Part shown: piece by piece, positions 10,706 through 19,045 of the stretch
How the letters are laid out: every line of letters begins with the position of its first letter
Position numbering within the stretch: position 1 is the stretch's first letter
Virus record (IMG/VR): IMGVR_UViG_3300045125_000071
Location: 1 to 64,000 of that record
Length of the DNA stretch: 64,000 nt
DNA from: a virus
Reading direction: 5' to 3' (one strand)
Translations under genes and position numbers: made by a program
The notes under the pieces: generated by a model
Database searches by the model: none
Seen by the model: the letters and a program-made list of their open reading frames with translations, nothing else
What the model was told of the DNA's origin: nothing

Positions 10706-11535
10706 TTATAAACTAATAATAGATTGAAGATACTTTTTATATTCTCCCAATCCATTTTCTAAATTATATTTTGGTTCCCACCCATCCATCCATAAAATTT
10801 TATTTGAACATGTGTAGAACTGGTATCCAAATGGTATTTTATTTTCTTCATGATATGTAAATGGAATATCCATAATATCCAATATATCTTCGAATGTTCT
10901 TGATTCACCATAACCAACATCATAAAATTTTCCTTTAAGTTTTACATAATTGTCTTCAGCATATAAATTAGCATTTACAACATCTTTAACATATATAAAA
11001 TCTCTTTTAGGTTTTAATGGGAATAATTTACATTCTTCATGTTTTCTATGTTTAATAAACGACTGATATGCGACAGATGACATCCGTCCTTTATGTTCTT
11101 CCCCTGGACCATACACATTAAAATATCTAAGTGCAATACCATTGTTTGATATTACATATTTCTCTGCAACGTATTTGCTCCACCCATAAAGATTAGATGG
11201 ATATTTCCCATTATCACCATAATTCGCTGCCGATGATGAATAAATCATTTTTGTGTTAGTCTTTACACAATAATCAGTTAAAATCTTTGTGAATTCAAAA
11301 TTTAACTTCATCATGTAATTAACATCTGTCTCTAATGTATCAGAACATGCCCCAACATGAAAAATAACTTTTGGGTTGTTCTTTTTAAGAATACCTAAAG
11401 GTTTTCATCCCAATCAGAATCATCAAATATATCTTCGTTTATTTCAATAACAAAATATGAAGACATTCTTCTAATTGTGTTAGCTAAATTTTTTCCTATG
11501 AACCCTTTTGCCCCTGTTACTATAACATTTACCAT
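10706..11535 (-). CDS. NAD-dependent sugar epimerase, HldD-like (one frameshift)
   Basis: A short-chain dehydrogenase-type nucleotide-sugar epimerase. The ATG at 11535 gives MVNVIVTGAKGFIGKNLA, with the Rossmann GxxGFIG motif at the extreme N-terminus. The frame shifts near 11398 and continues as VIFHVGACSDTLETDVNYMM and then ORF 10706-11314. Further motifs are IYSSSAANYG, the catalytic YGWSK (YxxxK), RYFNVYGPGE and KRDFIYVKDVV. The GACSDTxExD and KRDFIYVxDVV segments are those of ADP-glyceromanno-heptose 6-epimerase, which inverts C6 of ADP-heptose for LPS core. About 276 residues against roughly 310 for E. coli HldD. Its start overlaps the stop of the heptose-kinase-like gene by 7 bases, a strong sign of joint function. 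A different nucleotide-sugar substrate cannot be excluded. Confidence 0.8.
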
Positions 11536-12268
11536 GGTGTTACTACTCCTCTTTTTGATACTACTATTGATGACATTTCATTTTGCAACTACAATAGAGT
11601 CTAAAATGTTTTTGTTTGATGATATTTTAAAATAAACGATGCTGTAAATGTATCTCCAGCACCACTAACATCTATAGTTTCCTTTGGTGATGGTGATGGG
11701 AATATATCATTTTTGTATTTGACACCTTTAGACCCTAATGTGATTAAAATATTATCAAAATTTTTAAACCTTGATTATTTTTCGCTTCGTTTTCATTTAA
11801 CTTAACAAATGTGAATTTACTTATTGTTTCATCATCAAGTATTTTTTTTGAATCAAGTATAGATAACTTAGAAAGATTACCGATAATATTTAATGATTTA
11901 ATATTTAAAAACCCTTTATCATAATCACTTACAATTACAATGTCGTATTTTGGTATTTTTTCTAATAATTCGTTAGTTAGATTTATACCAGATATATTTT
12001 CCTCACCTTCATCTAATCTTAAAAACATATGATTACTTTTTTTATCAACGTATCTTGTCTTTGTAATTTTTTCATTTTGAAAAATTTGATTGATATTCAA
12101 TGATTTATCAAGTGATTTAAGATTGTTTAAAACATTACCTGACATTCCTTTATTTCTTATAATTTCTATTGGATTTAAAACAGGTACAGGTGCTTCTGGT
12201 GATAATCTTTTACAATCCCCATAAATAAAAACATCATCACAAACCTCACCTATTATTAATATTTTCAT
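11529..12268 (-). CDS. PfkB-family sugar kinase, RfaE/HldE kinase-domain-like (frameshifted)
   Basis: ORF 11744-12268 is the N-terminal part: KILIIGEVCDDVFIYGDCKR, then the RfaE hallmark LSPEAPVPV and a G-x-S-G-N-V-L-N-N-L segment (normally GGAANVA). After an indel near 11760 the protein continues with NILITLGSKGVKYKN and the PfkB signature DVSGAGDTFTASF (GAGD carries the catalytic base). A second indel near 11605 leads to the end EMSSIVVSKRGVVTPW, stopping at 11529. In bacteria this domain phosphorylates heptose-7-phosphate on the way to ADP-heptose. It has about 246 residues, and the cytidylyltransferase half of HldE is absent. It is coupled to the HldD-like gene (7-base overlap). Confidence 0.78.
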
Positions 12269-12330
12269 TTAAAAAAAATATCAATTTTTTTGCATATTCG
12301 AAAGCGTAAATATTTTTTGTAATTTATGAT

Positions 12331-12825
12331 TTAATTCTTAATATTGTCGATTGAAATTATATATTTTGATATGTTATCAATACCGTCATCTATATTTTTA
12401 AAATAAATCCTTTCTTCTTGCTCATCATAATCCGCCAGTTTGATTAAAAAATCTCTCACAACATTTTCTGGTTCATTTTCTAACCAATCGTATTCCCAAC
12501 TATTTTCATAATTCCACCCTGGCATGTAGGCAAATGGTTTAATTTTATATTTATTAGATAATTTATCCCCATCTAATGTAATTCTATAATCAGTTTTAAC
12601 TTGCCAAGTCGTATTCCTTTTATGAAAATTTTTATTTCTTGTAAAAGAAATATAGTTTAGTTGATGTCCTCTATAAAATTCTTCTGAAGTATTTAATTTA
12701 TTTGTTTTTAAAATGTTTTCTAAACCAGTTTTAGAAGTATAATGGTACAATAATCCGACTTGCTTTGATTCATTCAAAACAATAATCATGGATTTAATTC
12801 TTGATATTTGTTCTTGTAAATTCAT
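12331..12825 (-). CDS. ADP-ribosyltransferase-like protein with N-terminal tag-like peptide
   Basis: A 164-residue intact ORF. After a 20-residue amphipathic N-terminus (LQEQISRIKSM, ending LNE) comes GLLYHYTSKTGLENILKTN. In order, the sequence shows H28 in LYHYTS, S60/T62/R63 in ISFTRN, and E137-E138-R139 in EERIYF. The order H, then S/T, then E in an H-Y-T-S...S-F-T-R...E-E-R-I frame is typical of small ART-fold proteins of phages, where the last Glu would be catalytic. This is motif reasoning only; no homology search was run. The N-terminal segment resembles peptides seen in three other proteins here and could be a capsid-targeting sequence (T4 packages its ART, Alt). It sits between the phosphoesterase and the kinase, both 11-60 bases away. 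Confidence 0.6.
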   Translation of the reverse strand: MNLQEQISRIKSMIIVLNESKQVGLLYHYTSKTGLENILKTNKLNTSEEFYRGHQLNYISFTRNKNFHKRNTTWQVKTDYRITLDGDKLSNKYKIKPFAYMPGWNYENSWEYDWLENEPENVVRDFLIKLADYDEQEERIYFKNIDDGIDNISKYIISIDNIKN

Positions 12826-12836
12826 AATAATAAATA

Positions 12837-13628
12837 TTATACCACCATTGATTTATCTTCAATTGGTTTGTAGTGTATAATTTCTATTTTACCATCATCA
12901 TGAATCAATATTGCTGTCATTGATTCGACCCAGTCACCTGAATTTAAATAATGAACATTATCAATAATTCTATCCATTTCTTGGTGAATATGTCCACATA
13001 TTACTCCTTGACATCCATGATATTCGGCCATTTTTGCTGCGGTATTTTCAAAATCATTGACATAGTTTGTGGCGGTCTTTACTTTTTGTTTCAATGGTTT
13101 TGATATTGATTTATATTTAAAACCTCTGAATTTTCTCCATTTATTATATTGCGTATTCATCCATAACGCAATATCATAACCAACACTACCAATTTTTGAT
13201 AACCATTTATATTTTAACATGAAAATATCGATTTCATCGCCATGAAAAACAAAGTATCTTTTATTTTCAAATTTATCTTGGGTAATCCATTTATTAATAT
13301 TTATAACATGATTTTTTACTATTTTTATATTACCCATGTTAAAACCAATGTAGTCATCTAAGAATTCATCATGGTTTCCTCTAACCCATATGACTTCAGT
13401 TGTTTCAGATATTTTCAATAGTTTATTTACAACTTTAGTATGTTTTTTCTTCCATTTTGAACCTCTTTTCAATGCCCATCCATCTATTATATCTCCATTC
13501 AAAATTAAAGTATTACAAGAGGTATTGTCTAAAAATTCTATTATTTCATTTGTCTTTGAATCTCTTGTACCCAAATGTAAATCAGAAATTACAATCATAT
13601 TAACCATTCTATCAGTTTTATAAAACAA
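12837..13628 (-). CDS. LpxH-like metallophosphoesterase
   Basis: An intact calcineurin-like phosphoesterase of about 255-263 residues with every metal-binding motif in place: SDLHLG (residues 15-20), NGDIIDGW (44-51), RGNHDEF (83-89), FHGDEID, GHIHQE and NSGDWVES. This motif set is that of the UDP-2,3-diacylglucosamine pyrophosphatase (LpxH) type, which hydrolyses a pyrophosphate in lipid A synthesis. Related enzymes act on other nucleotides, so the substrate is open. The start could be Met1, Met8 or Met11; the core begins at MIVISDLHLG, so Met8 or Met11 is likely. It lies between a GT2 gene and the ART-like gene in a run of surface-sugar genes, which favours a role in host envelope modification. 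Confidence 0.85.
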   Translation of the reverse strand: MFYKTDRMVNMIVISDLHLGTRDSKTNEIIEFLDNTSCNTLILNGDIIDGWALKRGSKWKKKHTKVVNKLLKISETTEVIWVRGNHDEFLDDYIGFNMGNIKIVKNHVININKWITQDKFENKRYFVFHGDEIDIFMLKYKWLSKIGSVGYDIALWMNTQYNKWRKFRGFKYKSISKPLKQKVKTATNYVNDFENTAAKMAEYHGCQGVICGHIHQEMDRIIDNVHYLNSGDWVESMTAILIHDDGKIEIIHYKPIEDKSMVV

Positions 13629-13680
13629 ATGGTTAGTAACACCGTACTAACAATTATTAATTCTAAATTTATTTTCCTTT

Positions 13681-14355
13681 TCATGACCAATAATTATGTG
13701 ATTTGTAAAACCAAGATTTATTATTTCTATTAAACCAACTTTTTATGATTAGTACATACATCCACATAACACCTTTTTTATCAAATCGTCTGCCAGATGT
13801 ATATATATACTTTTTAACTAACTTATGTCTATCTTTAAGTATCATCCTACTTAATAACCAATCTTCGGCAACTTTTACGTTTTCGTTAAATTTTCCACAT
13901 TCGATAAATTTTTTTGTTCTCCATAATTGAAATCCACCTATTACAAAAGTCTCTGGTAGTATTTTTTGTAATAAATGAAACCCATTCCATAACCAATCAT
14001 ATTTTTTATCATCACATCGATATATACAAGAAACCAAATCATATTCGTCAATCGATTTTAAACAAGTTTCAATTAACTTTGTATCATATATCATCATATC
14101 CGCATCTAAAAATAAAACGAAAGGGGTTTGACATAAATCAAACCCCTTGTTTCTTGCAATAGATGGCAATCCACCATCGATTATTTTTATATGATTTTTG
14201 TTTTTAACATAATCATGTAATTCAACGTCTTTAATATCTGAAGAATCTGCAATAATTATATCAAAATTTATAGATTGTAATTCTAATAATTTTAAGCATT
14301 TTATAAGTGTATGACCTTCATTTTTTGATGGTATAACAATTGTTAGAATATTCAT
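13681..14355 (-). CDS. family 2 (GT-A) glycosyltransferase
   Basis: An intact protein of 224 residues with the GT2 layout: TIVIPSKNEGHTL at residues 5-17, nucleotide-sugar contacts at IIIADSSD, GLPSIARNKGF (62-72), and the metal-binding DxD as LDADM (83-87). Toward the C-terminus is VAEDWLLSRM, where the ED pair fits the usual catalytic base region. It lacks a transmembrane tail. GT2 enzymes move sugars to lipids, proteins, polysaccharides or modified DNA bases. Here it follows the reductase by 28 bases and precedes the phosphoesterase and heptose-type genes, so surface-polysaccharide modification is the best guess. DNA or virion glycosylation remains possible. Confidence 0.85.
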   Translation of the reverse strand: MNILTIVIPSKNEGHTLIKCLKLLELQSINFDIIIADSSDIKDVELHDYVKNKNHIKIIDGGLPSIARNKGFDLCQTPFVLFLDADMMIYDTKLIETCLKSIDEYDLVSCIYRCDDKKYDWLWNGFHLLQKILPETFVIGGFQLWRTKKFIECGKFNENVKVAEDWLLSRMILKDRHKLVKKYIYTSGRRFDKKGVMWMYVLIIKSWFNRNNKSWFYKSHNYWS

Positions 14356-14383: not shown

Positions 14384-17300
14384 TTATATGCGTGTAATTT
14401 CGCAACTTGACCCAGAACAAGCCATTGAACCATATTCTCCAATGTCCTTATATTGTGGTTTATCAAGAATTTCGCCAAAGTTAACTTCCTTGAACTGACG
14501 AGTAACGGTTTCCCACTTGTGGAAAAGATGCACATCCTTCAAGCAATATACCATTTTTCTCATGTCACCCTTAAAGTAATTCTTAGCGAATTTCTTTGCC
14601 CTATCTAACCAATATTTCTTCAATAATACTTGTTCCCTTGTTCCTGTAATTGGTAGAGCATATTCTGTGCCCATATTAATTAAAGTATCACAAGCTAACC
14701 AAAGGTTGTTGTCGAAGTAATGGAGACCATCTACAACCAATCCAGAAGCCAATACAGCGCCTTTTCCATATTCCTCGACAAGTTCTTCGAGGTTAAGTAC
14801 TGAGGTGAATGGTGCTTGGTTAAAATCCTTATCGCCGTAGTCTGACATGAATGATACCGCAGTAAATTCTTCTTTATTATCCCAAATGTAATCTACAATA
14901 ACATCCTTGTCATCAATGATTACAGTGCAACTGGTATTGTGGTTTACAGGATTATATATACATTTTTCTGGATTTGTACCAGCATTAACCCAGTTTTGTT
15001 GGACTAATTTGATAAGTTCAAGGTGTTTAATACCCTTCATATCTTTTTTGAACAACCCTTTTTTAGGGTTCTCAACAGGGACGAATACAACATAATCACT
15101 TTTTGTTTGCGACCAAACACTATCTTCTAATAAGAAGTCCATATTATCAACCAACCATTTAGCAGTATTGGATTCTTTGTTTAATTGCATGACTCTGAAA
15201 TATTTTTCAGAATGTTCTGGATGAATACCAGATGCTGTACCAAGAACTACAGATGCATTACCTGAAGGTTTAACGCAAGTGGTTCTTGCTGCCTGATTAA
15301 TATCAATAACTTCTGCAAGTTCCTTATTTGTTTTCTTAACAATCTCAGCACCTTCTTTAAGAAGTTCGGCGTTGAATAACATCGGATTATTCATCCAACC
15401 AGTTATGCTCACACCAAGCAACGCCTCTCTTGCAAAAATCTTTTCACTAACCTCTCCAAGATATGGGAAACTGTTATATCCCGCCTGAAGTGTACCAAGG
15501 ATTGTCGCGTCTTTACATGCCTTAAAGAATTTCTCTTTTGTTGTACATTTTTCAGCATTAATCTCTGATAGGTTGCATTGTTTAGTTAAAACATTATTAA
15601 ATAACCCTTGATGTTTATATTGTTCTTCAAAACAATATGAATTGTGGAATCCTTCTAATTGTACAATACTATCAATACATTGATATTTACCCTTATATTT
15701 TACTTCACTTGGCTGAAACCTAGTTTTGGTTGACCATAATTCTCCACAATCACTAATTTGAACATACCAAACATCTCTATTTCTTGTTCCAAAGTTTGTT
15801 ACCTCGCCCTTTTTGCTACAAAGATTAACAGTAGAATTTACCCCAATTTTAGTTAATAAAAGTTGTAAATCCCTAATCTTGTTTTCTTCACCATAAATTC
15901 TGGCTTTGTTATTATATGTAATTGTTCCATCGGTATCTATCCAACCAGCAATAAATGCAAGAATTGATTTTTTACTCCAACTAAAAATTTCAGAAGGTAA
16001 ACCATCTTCATATTTTAATTTATGAGATAGTTCCTTATCTAACTTATTAAAAGTAACATTATAATATTCTGTTTCAATTCCATTATAAGATTCTTTTAAT
16101 TTTTTACCAATTGTACCATCAACAAAAGGATATTCATTAGAAAAATTACTTTCATAGACAGAAGCAAAGGGGGTTCTGTATTTATCACCTATCTTAGGAC
16201 AAGTACCATCGCCTAAAACAAAACCATAATCATAAGCATAAATTTCATCGTGACCAAAATCAAAATCATTTACATTACTTCTTGGTACTTGAAGTTTATA
16301 TTTGGTAGTTTTTAGCAATTCAATTAAATCTTTTGTCTCGATTTCTTTAAATTGTTTTTCAAATCTATTTTTAACTAACCATTTATGGTTTTCAGTACAA
16401 TCCAAATATGAACCATCATTTAATTTTACCCTAAAAAGTTTTCTATTTGTACCAGTAAGAATAGGTTTGACTTTTGACCAATTTTCTCCATTCCAAATTT
16501 CAACCTCCCTATTTTCATCAACTACCTTACCAATCATTTCAATTCCATCCTTAGTAATTAATTTTGTTTCATATGAAACACACCCTTGGATACCAAACTT
16601 ATGTTTGTTCACACTCACATAATGCTCAACATCTTCATAGTCGATTTTTGAGAAATCAACCTCATCGAGTATTGGTAATTTCAATATTTCAAAACATGGG
16701 TTGAACATATCAAACCAAGAATTTGCGAATACAAAACCAATATCGTTTGCACCATCGTTTAGTTTAACAAGATAATCAAACTGGTCTTTAGTCACTTTAC
16801 CCCTTAACAAGAGAACCGAATTGTTCGACCTTGCTCTTTGTGGATTTTCTTCTCTCCAATTACCCGTTTTAGCATGAATCATTTCGGTATCATTTGGGTC
16901 AACAATCATATTTAATGCTGACCTTCTAACCCCGCCAGACAATACCGCATCAGATGCATGACAAATGATGTCAAATGCCAAGATTGGCCTGATTTTATTT
17001 CCTTCCTTATCAATCCACCTTTCGATTAATTGTTCGATTTTTTCAAGGGATTGTTTAAGTCCATCGGGACCAGGAGCCTTGAATCCGCCACTAATGAATG
17101 TACCCTTTTCTCTAACTTGTGAATAATCAAATTTAACCTCATATCCTGCATATTCAGGGAATGGTTGGTTGTCAACAAAATATGATGACAAAAGAACGCC
17201 GAGTGAGTCCGCCCAACCTTCAATAGAGTCAGGTACAACAAATGTCTTAGCACCTAAAACCCTTTTCTGAATACGACTAAGATTATTAACAAATGGGATT

Positions 17301-17656
17301 AACAATCCGCCACCAACACCGCAACCAGATAAACCAAGATAAAATATTTCTTGGAATACTCTATTCCTCATTATGTGTGTACTAGTACAGTTATACATCC
17401 TTGTGTTATGTCTCAAAATTTCAGTATGTCTATACTGCAAATTTCTTTGAGATGCTAACACAACCTGGTCTTCCATACTTTCAAGAGCAGATTGTAGATA
17501 TTCTTCAATCTGATAATTAGAGTATTTTTGCCTATGACCATTTATAATGTCTGCACAAGCCTCTTTCCAATTTTCGTACCTTCCAATTTCATCCCTCCAT
17601 TTGAAGTAATCGGAATACAATTTTAAGTCGCTAAGAAATTTCTTACCTTTTTGCAT
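14384..17656 (-). CDS. nrdJ: adenosylcobalamin-dependent (class II) ribonucleotide reductase with intein
   Basis: A single open frame of 1090 codons containing a 335-residue intein (residues 359-693). The joined exteins make 755 residues, close to the monomeric ribonucleoside-triphosphate reductase type (about 740). Visible motifs are MYNCTS (Cys90, first redox Cys), LSGCGVGGG, GGVRRSA, NPCFEI (Cys321, thiyl-radical Cys with Glu323), CNLSEIN (Cys694, second redox Cys), KPSGNASVVLGTASGIHPEH, and the C-terminal shuttle pair CSGSSC (Cys1080, Cys1085). It makes dNTPs for phage replication without a separate small subunit and without oxygen dependence. It sits 21 bases downstream of the helicase in the replication operon. 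It is the longest intact gene in the window, whereas most of its neighbours are frameshifted. Confidence 0.95.
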   Translation of the reverse strand: MQKGKKFLSDLKLYSDYFKWRDEIGRYENWKEACADIINGHRQKYSNYQIEEYLQSALESMEDQVVLASQRNLQYRHTEILRHNTRMYNCTSTHIMRNRVFQEIFYLGLSGCGVGGGLLIPFVNNLSRIQKRVLGAKTFVVPDSIEGWADSLGVLLSSYFVDNQPFPEYAGYEVKFDYSQVREKGTFISGGFKAPGPDGLKQSLEKIEQLIERWIDKEGNKIRPILAFDIICHASDAVLSGGVRRSALNMIVDPNDTEMIHAKTGNWREENPQRARSNNSVLLLRGKVTKDQFDYLVKLNDGANDIGFVFANSWFDMFNPCFEILKLPILDEVDFSKIDYEDVEHYVSVNKHKFGIQGCVSYETKLITKDGIEMIGKVVDENREVEIWNGENWSKVKPILTGTNRKLFRVKLNDGSYLDCTENHKWLVKNRFEKQFKEIETKDLIELLKTTKYKLQVPRSNVNDFDFGHDEIYAYDYGFVLGDGTCPKIGDKYRTPFASVYESNFSNEYPFVDGTIGKKLKESYNGIETEYYNVTFNKLDKELSHKLKYEDGLPSEIFSWSKKSILAFIAGWIDTDGTITYNNKARIYGEENKIRDLQLLLTKIGVNSTVNLCSKKGEVTNFGTRNRDVWYVQISDCGELWSTKTRFQPSEVKYKGKYQCIDSIVQLEGFHNSYCFEEQYKHQGLFNNVLTKQCNLSEINAEKCTTKEKFFKACKDATILGTLQAGYNSFPYLGEVSEKIFAREALLGVSITGWMNNPMLFNAELLKEGAEIVKKTNKELAEVIDINQAARTTCVKPSGNASVVLGTASGIHPEHSEKYFRVMQLNKESNTAKWLVDNMDFLLEDSVWSQTKSDYVVFVPVENPKKGLFKKDMKGIKHLELIKLVQQNWVNAGTNPEKCIYNPVNHNTSCTVIIDDKDVIVDYIWDNKEEFTAVSFMSDYGDKDFNQAPFTSVLNLEELVEEYGKGAVLASGLVVDGLHYFDNNLWLACDTLINMGTEYALPITGTREQVLLKKYWLDRAKKFAKNYFKGDMRKMVYCLKDVHLFHKWETVTRQFKEVNFGEILDKPQYKDIGEYGSMACSGSSCEITRI
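15578..16582 (-). mobile_element. intein with LAGLIDADG homing endonuclease, in nrdJ
   Basis: The intein runs from Cys359 (GIQG|CVSYETKLITKDG) to Gln693 (NNVLTKQ|CNLSEIN). Splicing block A is CVSYETK, and block B is the DCTENHKWLV region with its T-x-x-H. Two dodecapeptide endonuclease motifs are present, YDYGFVLGDGT and LAFIAGWIDTDGT, each with its acidic residue, so an active DOD homing nuclease is plausible. Block F is QLEGFHNSYCF. The C-terminal residue is Gln, not Asn, and the residue before it is Lys, not His. Terminal-Gln inteins are known, for example in an iridovirus reductase. The +1 nucleophile is Cys694, the reductase's own redox cysteine. Confidence 0.9.
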
Positions 17657-17677: not shown

Positions 17678-19045
17678 TTATTTATTATTTAATTCCTGTC
17701 TTTTAAGAAAGGCTTTCTTTGCCAATTCTTGTTTGTTTTGAACTTGTTGGTTTTCAAAACCAAGTAGTGTATTTTGTGATTCGGTATCTATATCGAGATA
17801 TTCGTTATTAAATTTACAGTTTTGGAATATGATACCATCTTTTCCTACTCTTGATTTAACTAAAGTCATTGTTGCTAAGTTGTGTTCCTTTTGTTCTAGT
17901 GTTTTACCAAGCGATAATATGACATGCGCTATTTGTGCTTTTTTGATTGAACCACCCATTTGGTCTGTACTAACAACTTCAGATGATATTGACTCTCTAT
18001 TGCCTTGGGTTGCTGTCCATATAGCAATTTCGAATTCATCTGTCATCGCCTCAAGTCTTCTCATTATTGAACCCTCACCCTTCCATTCATCACCATTGAT
18101 TGATTTTTCTGGTGCAATACAATCAACATAATCAAGAACAAGTAGGTCTATATTAAAACCATCCGAAATCATTTTTCTGATTTTTGACTTGATTTCAGAA
18201 ATAGATACATCACTACTAGCCAATTTCAATAATTTCAATTGACCAGATGATTGACTCTGTTTTTCTCTTGCAACACTTAAAACCTCTTCTTTATTTTCTG
18301 GCTGGTCATCAGGTGCTACACCACTCCAAATAGTGTAGTGTTTTCTTTTGATATCCCCTGGATTATCTTCAAAAAATATTTGAAGAACATTGTAACCACA
18401 GTTAAATGCTGTATTTGCCATTTTTGTAAGCAAGGTTGTTTTACCAGTACCTGTAGGTGCAAGTACAACCCCCAATTCACCTCTTCCTAAACCACCTTTA
18501 AGCAGATTATCAACCCCAACAATACCTGTCGGTATTGGGTGTCTATAGTCCTTCTGGAGAGCATCTTCCATGTTTTCAAACACATCAGATATCTCATCTT
18601 CTTCAAGACCAACTTGTAAAGCATCATTAAATAAACCTTCAAGTTTTTTGTATTGCTCAAAATCACCACCTTCAATGATTTTTTCCGCAATTTTTATAAC
18701 CCGTTTGAGATTTTGTTGTTTACAGAAATTCATCGCGGTTTCCTGAACATAATCAGGGTTACCATTTAAACCTTTTAATATTTCTAAGGTATCTAAATGG
18801 ATTTTGATGCCGAATCTCCGTTTTCGTTAATAAGTTTTTGTGCTAATGTCACATAATCAGGAATTCTTTCAAATTGAGAATAGAATTCCTTTATATTTTC
18901 CATTATAAATCTAAAGGAAGCATTTTCAAAATACTTACTTTCGATTAACTCGATTATTTGCTCAGCATATTTCCTATCTTCAATGATAGTCTTGATTAAT
19001 GTTTTGTTGAAAATCAAAACCAAGATATCCAAAGTTCTTTTCCAT
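17678..19045 (-). CDS. gp41: replicative DNA helicase, DnaB/T4 gp41-like (frameshifted)
   Basis: ORF 17678-18733 carries the RecA-fold C-terminal domain: PIPTGIVGVDNLLKGGLGRG, Walker A APTGTGKTT, the IFFEDNP region, Walker B DLLVLDYVDCI, WTATQGNR, and the SIKKAQIAHVILSL segment. The N-terminal domain is in ORF 18793-19053 (FMEN IKEFYSQFERIPDY). The two are joined by an indel in an A run near 18803 (DSASK, then HLDTLEILKGLNGNPDYVQ). A further indel near 19005 gives the likely true start at 19045, MEKNFGYLGFDFQ. The total is about 455 residues, against 475 for T4 gp41. It would unwind the fork ahead of the phage polymerase. It is part of the SSB-UvsX-exonuclease-helicase-reductase operon. No primase was seen in this window. 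Confidence 0.87.

Follow-up and report, generated by a model that had tools for sequence, protein, structure and literature searches.

A Gln-ending intein, predicted to be of class 1, precedes the redox cysteine of a phage class II ribonucleotide reductase

Results

The nrdJ locus

The DNA analyzed, referred to here as the window, comprises the first 64,000 nucleotides of the IMG/VR virus record IMGVR_UViG_3300045125_000071, which is 251,358 bases long and whose genes for a baseplate and a tail sheath suggest a myovirus. One open reading frame on the minus strand codes for a protein that, judging from its sequence, is a monomeric class II (RTPR-type) ribonucleotide reductase, NrdJ. RTPR is an adenosylcobalamin-dependent triphosphate reductase. 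The reading frame contains an in-frame insert of 335 amino acids that occupies exactly positions 15578-16582, the interval originally predicted to be an intein. The parts of the gene are as follows.

14384-17656, minus strand: nrdJ open reading frame, unspliced precursor of 1090 amino acids (755 once spliced)
16583-17656, minus strand: N-extein, amino acids 1-358, last residues FGIQG
15578-16582, minus strand: predicted intein, 335 amino acids from Cys1 to Gln335, starting CVSYETKLIT and ending FNNVLTKQ
14384-15577, minus strand: C-extein, starting CNLSEIN, with a C-terminal CSGSSC whose cysteines are the relay cysteines (RTPR C731/C736)

The precursor matched the RTPR model TIGR02505 with an E value of 1e-33, a score under the curated cut-off, as expected for an nrdJ that is interrupted and divergent. 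The Pfam reductase model PF02867 had no match on the record, even to the window nrdJ, which shows only that this model misses such a gene. When the 251,358-base record, which may be incomplete, was searched with the precursor protein, the window nrdJ was the only one retrieved, and the window intein was the sole intein-splicing match in the whole record.

A gene for a DnaB-like replicative helicase, in which no intein was seen, lies directly upstream of nrdJ (17678-18733). On the other side, nrdJ is adjoined by a cluster of sugar- or surface-type genes (10706-14355) that includes an NAD-dependent epimerase (10706-11314), an open reading frame that by eye resembles heptose kinases and whose sole match was phrog_8133 (11744-12268), a metallophosphoesterase that is LpxH-like by eye (12837-13628) and a family 2 glycosyltransferase (13681-14355).

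Motifs and predicted fold of the insert

The insert matched the NCBIfam model intein_Nterm (TIGR01445, E value 1e-8) and the Pfam model LAGLIDADG_3 (PF14528), both over cut-off. Although the match to Intein_splicing (PF14890) was under cut-off, there is little room for doubt, given the TIGR01445 match and the fold, that the insert is an intein. The AlphaFold2 model (mean pLDDT, 95.3) predicts a Hint fold and was matched along its whole length by intein structures. The TliVMA intein (7qsu) aligned across residues 1-335 with a Z score of 25.0 (291 residues, 3.1 A), followed by PI-PfuI (Z 23.1, 304 residues, 4.0 A) and PI-SceI (Z near 20), and Foldseek also returned endonuclease-bearing inteins. 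The motifs listed below are numbered by intein residue, with the blocks named after PMC4031507; conservation refers to a 42-row alignment of inteins, from which two rows belonging to annotated phage records were left out.

16580-16582, minus strand: Cys1, predicted N-terminal splicing nucleophile, invariant
16385-16396, minus strand: block B TxxH (T63-E-N-H66); H66 invariant, T63 conserved in at least 90% of rows
16202-16237, minus strand: LAGLIDADG motif 1, AYDYGFVLGDGT; D125 invariant, helix 116-125 in the model
15926-15973, minus strand: LAGLIDADG motif 2, ..AFIAGWIDTDG; D218 invariant, helix 204-218 in the model
15578-15643, minus strand: blocks F and G, NSYCFEEQYKHQGLFNNVLTKQ, with Cys317 at F:4, His324 at the F:13 position, penultimate Lys334 and terminal Gln335

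Both LAGLIDADG motifs thus keep their acidic residues, as originally noted, and together they predict a LAGLIDADG homing endonuclease domain. In the same alignment, C317 is invariant and Q335 is found in at least 90% of the rows. The residues expected of class 1 inteins are present at the N-terminal side (Cys1 and the block B TxxH) and at the +1 position (Cys). At the C-terminal end, VLTKQ/C (the slash marks a splice junction or insertion point), the terminal residue is Gln, an accepted substitute for the canonical Asn, like Asp or Glu, and Lys334 takes the place of the penultimate His that is typical of class 1 without being essential. Taken together, the sequence and the model identify the insert as an intein of class 1 that includes a LAGLIDADG endonuclease domain; splicing is predicted by analogy with the Chilo iridescent virus (CIV) ribonucleotide reductase (RNR) and Pol II inteins.

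The intein precedes the redox cysteine

The 80 closest viral NrdJ loci were fetched using the precursor as query. The sequence FGIQG/CNLXEIN, where X is T, S or N, is uninterrupted in 77 of them, and the boundaries of the intein are therefore exact; this comparison with intein-free phage nrdJ leaves the insertion point where it had been placed. An intein occupies the CNL site in the remaining three loci (L001, L002 and L004), and five loci have an insert at another cysteine, NP/C (L001, L002, L003, L014 and L015), so that both sites are occupied in L001 and L002. At the DNA level, the sequence around the junction of the empty alleles is conserved, with the consensus TTtGGtATtCAAGGt/TGTAA.tTaAC in the 77 close loci.

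Five cysteines, C90, C321, C359 and a C-terminal CxxxxC pair, are invariant among eight aligned phage NrdJ proteins that lack inteins, and the profile of these exteins matched the Lactobacillus leichmannii RTPR structure (1l1l) with an E value of 1e-67. In the profile alignment, Cys359 of the spliced enzyme (the cysteine of CNL) lies opposite Cys419, C321 (NPC) opposite C408, C90 opposite C119, and the C-terminal pair opposite C731/C736. In RTPR, Cys408 carries the thiyl radical, Cys119 and Cys419 form the redox pair, and C731/C736 act as the relay. All five catalytic and relay cysteines expected of a monomeric class II reductase are present, three of them at the following positions.

17387-17389, minus strand: Cys90, invariant in the intein-free phage proteins, equivalent to RTPR Cys119 (redox pair)
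16694-16696, minus strand: Cys321 of NPC, equivalent to RTPR Cys408; second intein site in relatives
15575-15577, minus strand: +1 Cys, amino acid 694 of the precursor and Cys359 of the spliced enzyme, equivalent to RTPR Cys419

Since the CNL cysteine aligns with Cys419, the +1 nucleophile would be the redox partner of the Cys119 equivalent. The proposal that the enzyme's own redox cysteine follows the intein directly is thus borne out, and the Cys694 named in it is the correct residue, numbered in the unspliced precursor, where the intein Cys1 is amino acid 359 and the terminal Gln is amino acid 693. Insertion at the radical cysteine was considered and ruled out by the alignments with the viral loci and with 1l1l. 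The codons at the C-terminal junction, ACT AAA CAA / TGC AAC (T K Q / C N), confirm the terminal Gln preceded by Lys.

In the Pseudaeromonas phage KLEP7 (L089:1144-1420), nrdJ is annotated as two open reading frames with the break just after the NP of NPC. The interrupting stretch of about 240 bases appears by eye to be non-coding and intron-like, and a comparison with Rfam gave no match.

Integrity of the intein

The intein reading frame has neither stops nor frameshifts. The dN/dS ratio was 0.085 in comparison with L001 (86% identical) and 0.13 in comparison with L111, and values of about 0.09 indicate strongly purifying selection, so the intein is not a relic. The KQ/CNL junction recurs in L001, L004, L111-L121 and others; since independent contigs share it, faulty assembly or sequencing was ruled out as the source of the Gln end. 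Synonymous divergence (pS) was 0.53 in the intein versus 0.66 and 0.76 in the exteins. A recent transfer is not claimed from this difference, as the higher AT content of the intein (GC, 28% versus 36%) lowers saturation.

Two clades of reductase inteins

Relatives of the intein were gathered from viral contigs, phage records and species genomes, and a tree of 111 full-length sequences was built leaving out the last six residues; the terminal-Asn inteins of Caulobacter and Brevundimonas phages were not included in it. Two clades were obtained, each with an SH-aLRT support of 100. One has 66 rows, 64 of them located at the redox cysteine, the exceptions being L274, at the radical cysteine and on a long branch, and the unclassified L250. 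Its members come from viral NrdJ proteins, cyanobacteria (L189-L213 and L215) and one Clostridiales MAG (L214). The 45 rows of the other clade are at or adjoining the radical cysteine and include the inteins of ICP1, Rheinheimera, Staphylococcus, Pectobacterium and other phages. By this sequence comparison, the window intein belongs to the redox-cysteine clade; inteins of the sister clade are found at the radical cysteine of phage NrdA.

In this 111-row sample, for which alone the proportions hold, Gln is the last residue in 84 rows and Asn in 27. The searches were seeded with Gln-ending sequences, and such queries favor Gln-ending relatives; the patterns used in the alignment-based viral scans excluded the last residue, but one of the two used to scan genomes included it (LTKQCNLxE). 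By site, there are 51 Gln and 13 Asn ends at the redox cysteine, 32 Gln and 11 Asn at the radical cysteine, three Asn at an NPC/S site, and one Gln in the unclassified row. All sampled viral alleles at the redox site end in Gln except one. Terminal Gln had been regarded as uncommon in inteins; this is not so here, where the sequences make it the usual end in the sampled family. The tree requires at least 13 changes between Asn and Gln; counted apart, the radical-site rows require 9 and the redox-site rows 2. The Asn rows of the redox clade, 12 cyanobacterial ones and the viral L286, are nested among Gln rows, and Gln is therefore the more economical ancestral state in this clade.

The residue preceding the last one varies across the relatives (G, Y, K, F, H, S, A or M). 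None of the 27 Asn-ending rows has a penultimate His. The original statement that Lys replaces this His holds for the window intein, and its terminal K-Q recurs in close relatives, but absence of the His is not specific to the Gln end, since the Asn-ending relatives lack it as well.

Discussion

Relation to known inteins

The closest known systems are the cyanobacterial NrdJ inteins of Trichodesmium, Nostoc, Calothrix and others, which share the insertion residue (before CNL) and the clade of the window intein and are homologous to it over their full length (36-43% identity). They differ in being located in cyanobacterial chromosomes and in having mostly Gly-Asn ends, with a Gln end in L211 and L213 only. 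Four inteins were reported in the Trichodesmium erythraeum reductase (PMC1635734), and a genome of this species (L198) has inteins at both the NP/C and the CNL positions. The redox insertion site has therefore very probably been catalogued already. The inteins of phage NrdA and NrdE proteins (ICP1, Rheinheimera, Staphylococcus and Pectobacterium phages and the SPbeta bnrdE) are also homologous, with Cys1, a LAGLIDADG domain, no penultimate His and, in many cases, a GQ/C end. In contrast to the window intein, they precede the class I radical cysteine (SNL/C) and form the separate clade; the SPbeta bnrdE intein, at SNL/C, ends in GN/C. A C-terminal Gln in reductase inteins is already known from CIV, whose RNR intein, compared here by description, splices (PMC4031507). 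It was grouped with the B. subtilis prophage reductase inteins (PMC1635734), of which the SPbeta one is at the radical cysteine. The Pab, Pho and Mma Pol II inteins, in another host gene, also end in Gln (PMC4031507, PMC8229266), and PhoPol-II has a penultimate His (His165, PMC8229266), unlike the Lys334 of the window intein. The inteins at the NPC/S site, such as L277 and L086, have Asn ends. Another class II reductase intein is NrdJ-1, the structure of which (8ubs) matched the window model with a Z score of 16.5. It is a split intein that is not known to carry an endonuclease, and its site is near the radical cysteine.

Proposed splicing pathway and alternatives

The boundaries, the identity of the site, the motifs, the predicted fold, the family and the purifying selection are the direct basis for a reading that we hold with high confidence: the insert is a class 1 intein that bears an endonuclease and interrupts a phage NrdJ immediately before the redox cysteine. 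The splicing steps are outlined here by analogy with known inteins. Cys1 would take up the N-extein as a thioester, aided by Thr63 and His66 of block B. The redox cysteine of the enzyme, at +1, would then attack the thioester to give the branched intermediate, and cyclization of Gln335 would release the intein, probably with help from His324 of block F. This role is proposed because the penultimate position is Lys334; it is uncertain, as only 37 of the 51 Gln-ending relatives at the redox site have the block F His. Finally, an S-to-N shift would join GIQG to CNLSEIN and restore the active site; by the same analogy, the precursor would be inactive. Intein-free nrdJ alleles are the expected target of the LAGLIDADG domain, which would cut them around GGTATTCAAGGT/TGTAA and thereby spread the intein. 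Precedents exist for the unusual end: inteins with a terminal Gln have been assigned to the class 1 mechanism, the penultimate His is replaced by another residue in about 5% of functional inteins (PMC4031507), and the block F His of PhoPol-II was proposed to act on its Gln (PMC8229266).

One alternative is that the window intein is decaying: without a terminal Asn and a penultimate His it would splice poorly or only undergo cleavage, and the phage would depend on another reductase. In favor of this, splicing of the Pab and Mma Pol II inteins is slower with Gln than with Asn (PMC4031507). We consider such decay very improbable in view of the low dN/dS, the intact reading frame, the conservation of the Gln end across deep branches of the clade and the CIV RNR intein, which splices better with its native Gln than with Asn (PMC4031507); moreover, the precursor retrieved no further nrdJ from the record, incomplete as this may be. 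It is next to inconceivable that the insert is a non-intein domain retained in the mature reductase. NrdJ proteins do bear insertion domains, e.g., PF21995, but this insert has an intein fold from Cys1 to Gln335, separates two active-site cysteines, is absent from the 77 close relatives and recurs at the same residue in distant reductases.

A variant of the preferred reading, a class 1 intein that splices, adds gating by redox state, with the reductase released only under reducing conditions. It is suggested by the meeting of Cys1, Cys317 and the +1 redox cysteine in one site; neither Cys1 nor Cys317 varies in the 42-row alignment, and the three cysteines occur together. An internal disulfide switch is known for one intein (Nicastri 2013, to which PMC4031507 refers in connection with the Gln-ending Mma Pol II intein). 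Cys317 is nonetheless weak evidence for gating, since Cys is the second commonest residue at F:4 among inteins generally (PMC4031507), and we judge the variant unlikely. A broader proposal also reads as doubtful, if somewhat less so: that Gln is ancestral and stably kept in the whole redox clade instead of being a degenerate Asn, that the cyanobacterial Asn ends are reversions, and that splicing is redox-tuned, the last point being raised by the +1 residue, the enzyme's own redox cysteine.

Taken singly, the window intein adds one more putatively mobile element to those of phage reductases. More useful is the set around it, in which homologous inteins occupy two of the catalytic cysteines of one enzyme and end in Gln in 84 cases and in Asn in 27, with repeated interchange. 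This set offers a natural series of comparisons from which to judge whether Gln serves splicing as well as Asn does or only lamely; a review (PMC4031507) cites just three inteins in which this was tested. Reductase inteins closely track the catalytic cysteines, and at both sites an essential cysteine of the enzyme is the predicted splicing nucleophile.

Unusual alleles in related loci

Four arrangements seen among the relatives are recorded here. In L001:5072-9415, a single viral nrdJ has two inteins, before the radical and the redox cysteines, ending in AVHN/C and LTKQ/C, respectively; Trichodesmium loci such as L198 have the same double arrangement. The radical-site insert of a related viral NrdJ (L003:3075-4283) ends in NGITAAR/CAEI, apparently with a terminal Arg (AGA), in an open frame known from a single contig; a search for close relatives returned only L003 itself. 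Such an Arg could not cyclize like Asn or Gln, and this insert may be dead, misread or a new variant. A short intein of 265 amino acids in L274:4001-4795 groups with the redox clade, yet is located at the radical cysteine (GSNP/C...LTHQ/CVEQ), a possible site switch, with the qualification that the branch is long. In seven loci (L127, L128, L130, L131, L132, L134 and L266), inteins of the redox clade are inserted one residue downstream (ELC/C...Q/CLVE); the mature enzyme would read CC, and the +1 residue would be the neighbor of the redox cysteine.
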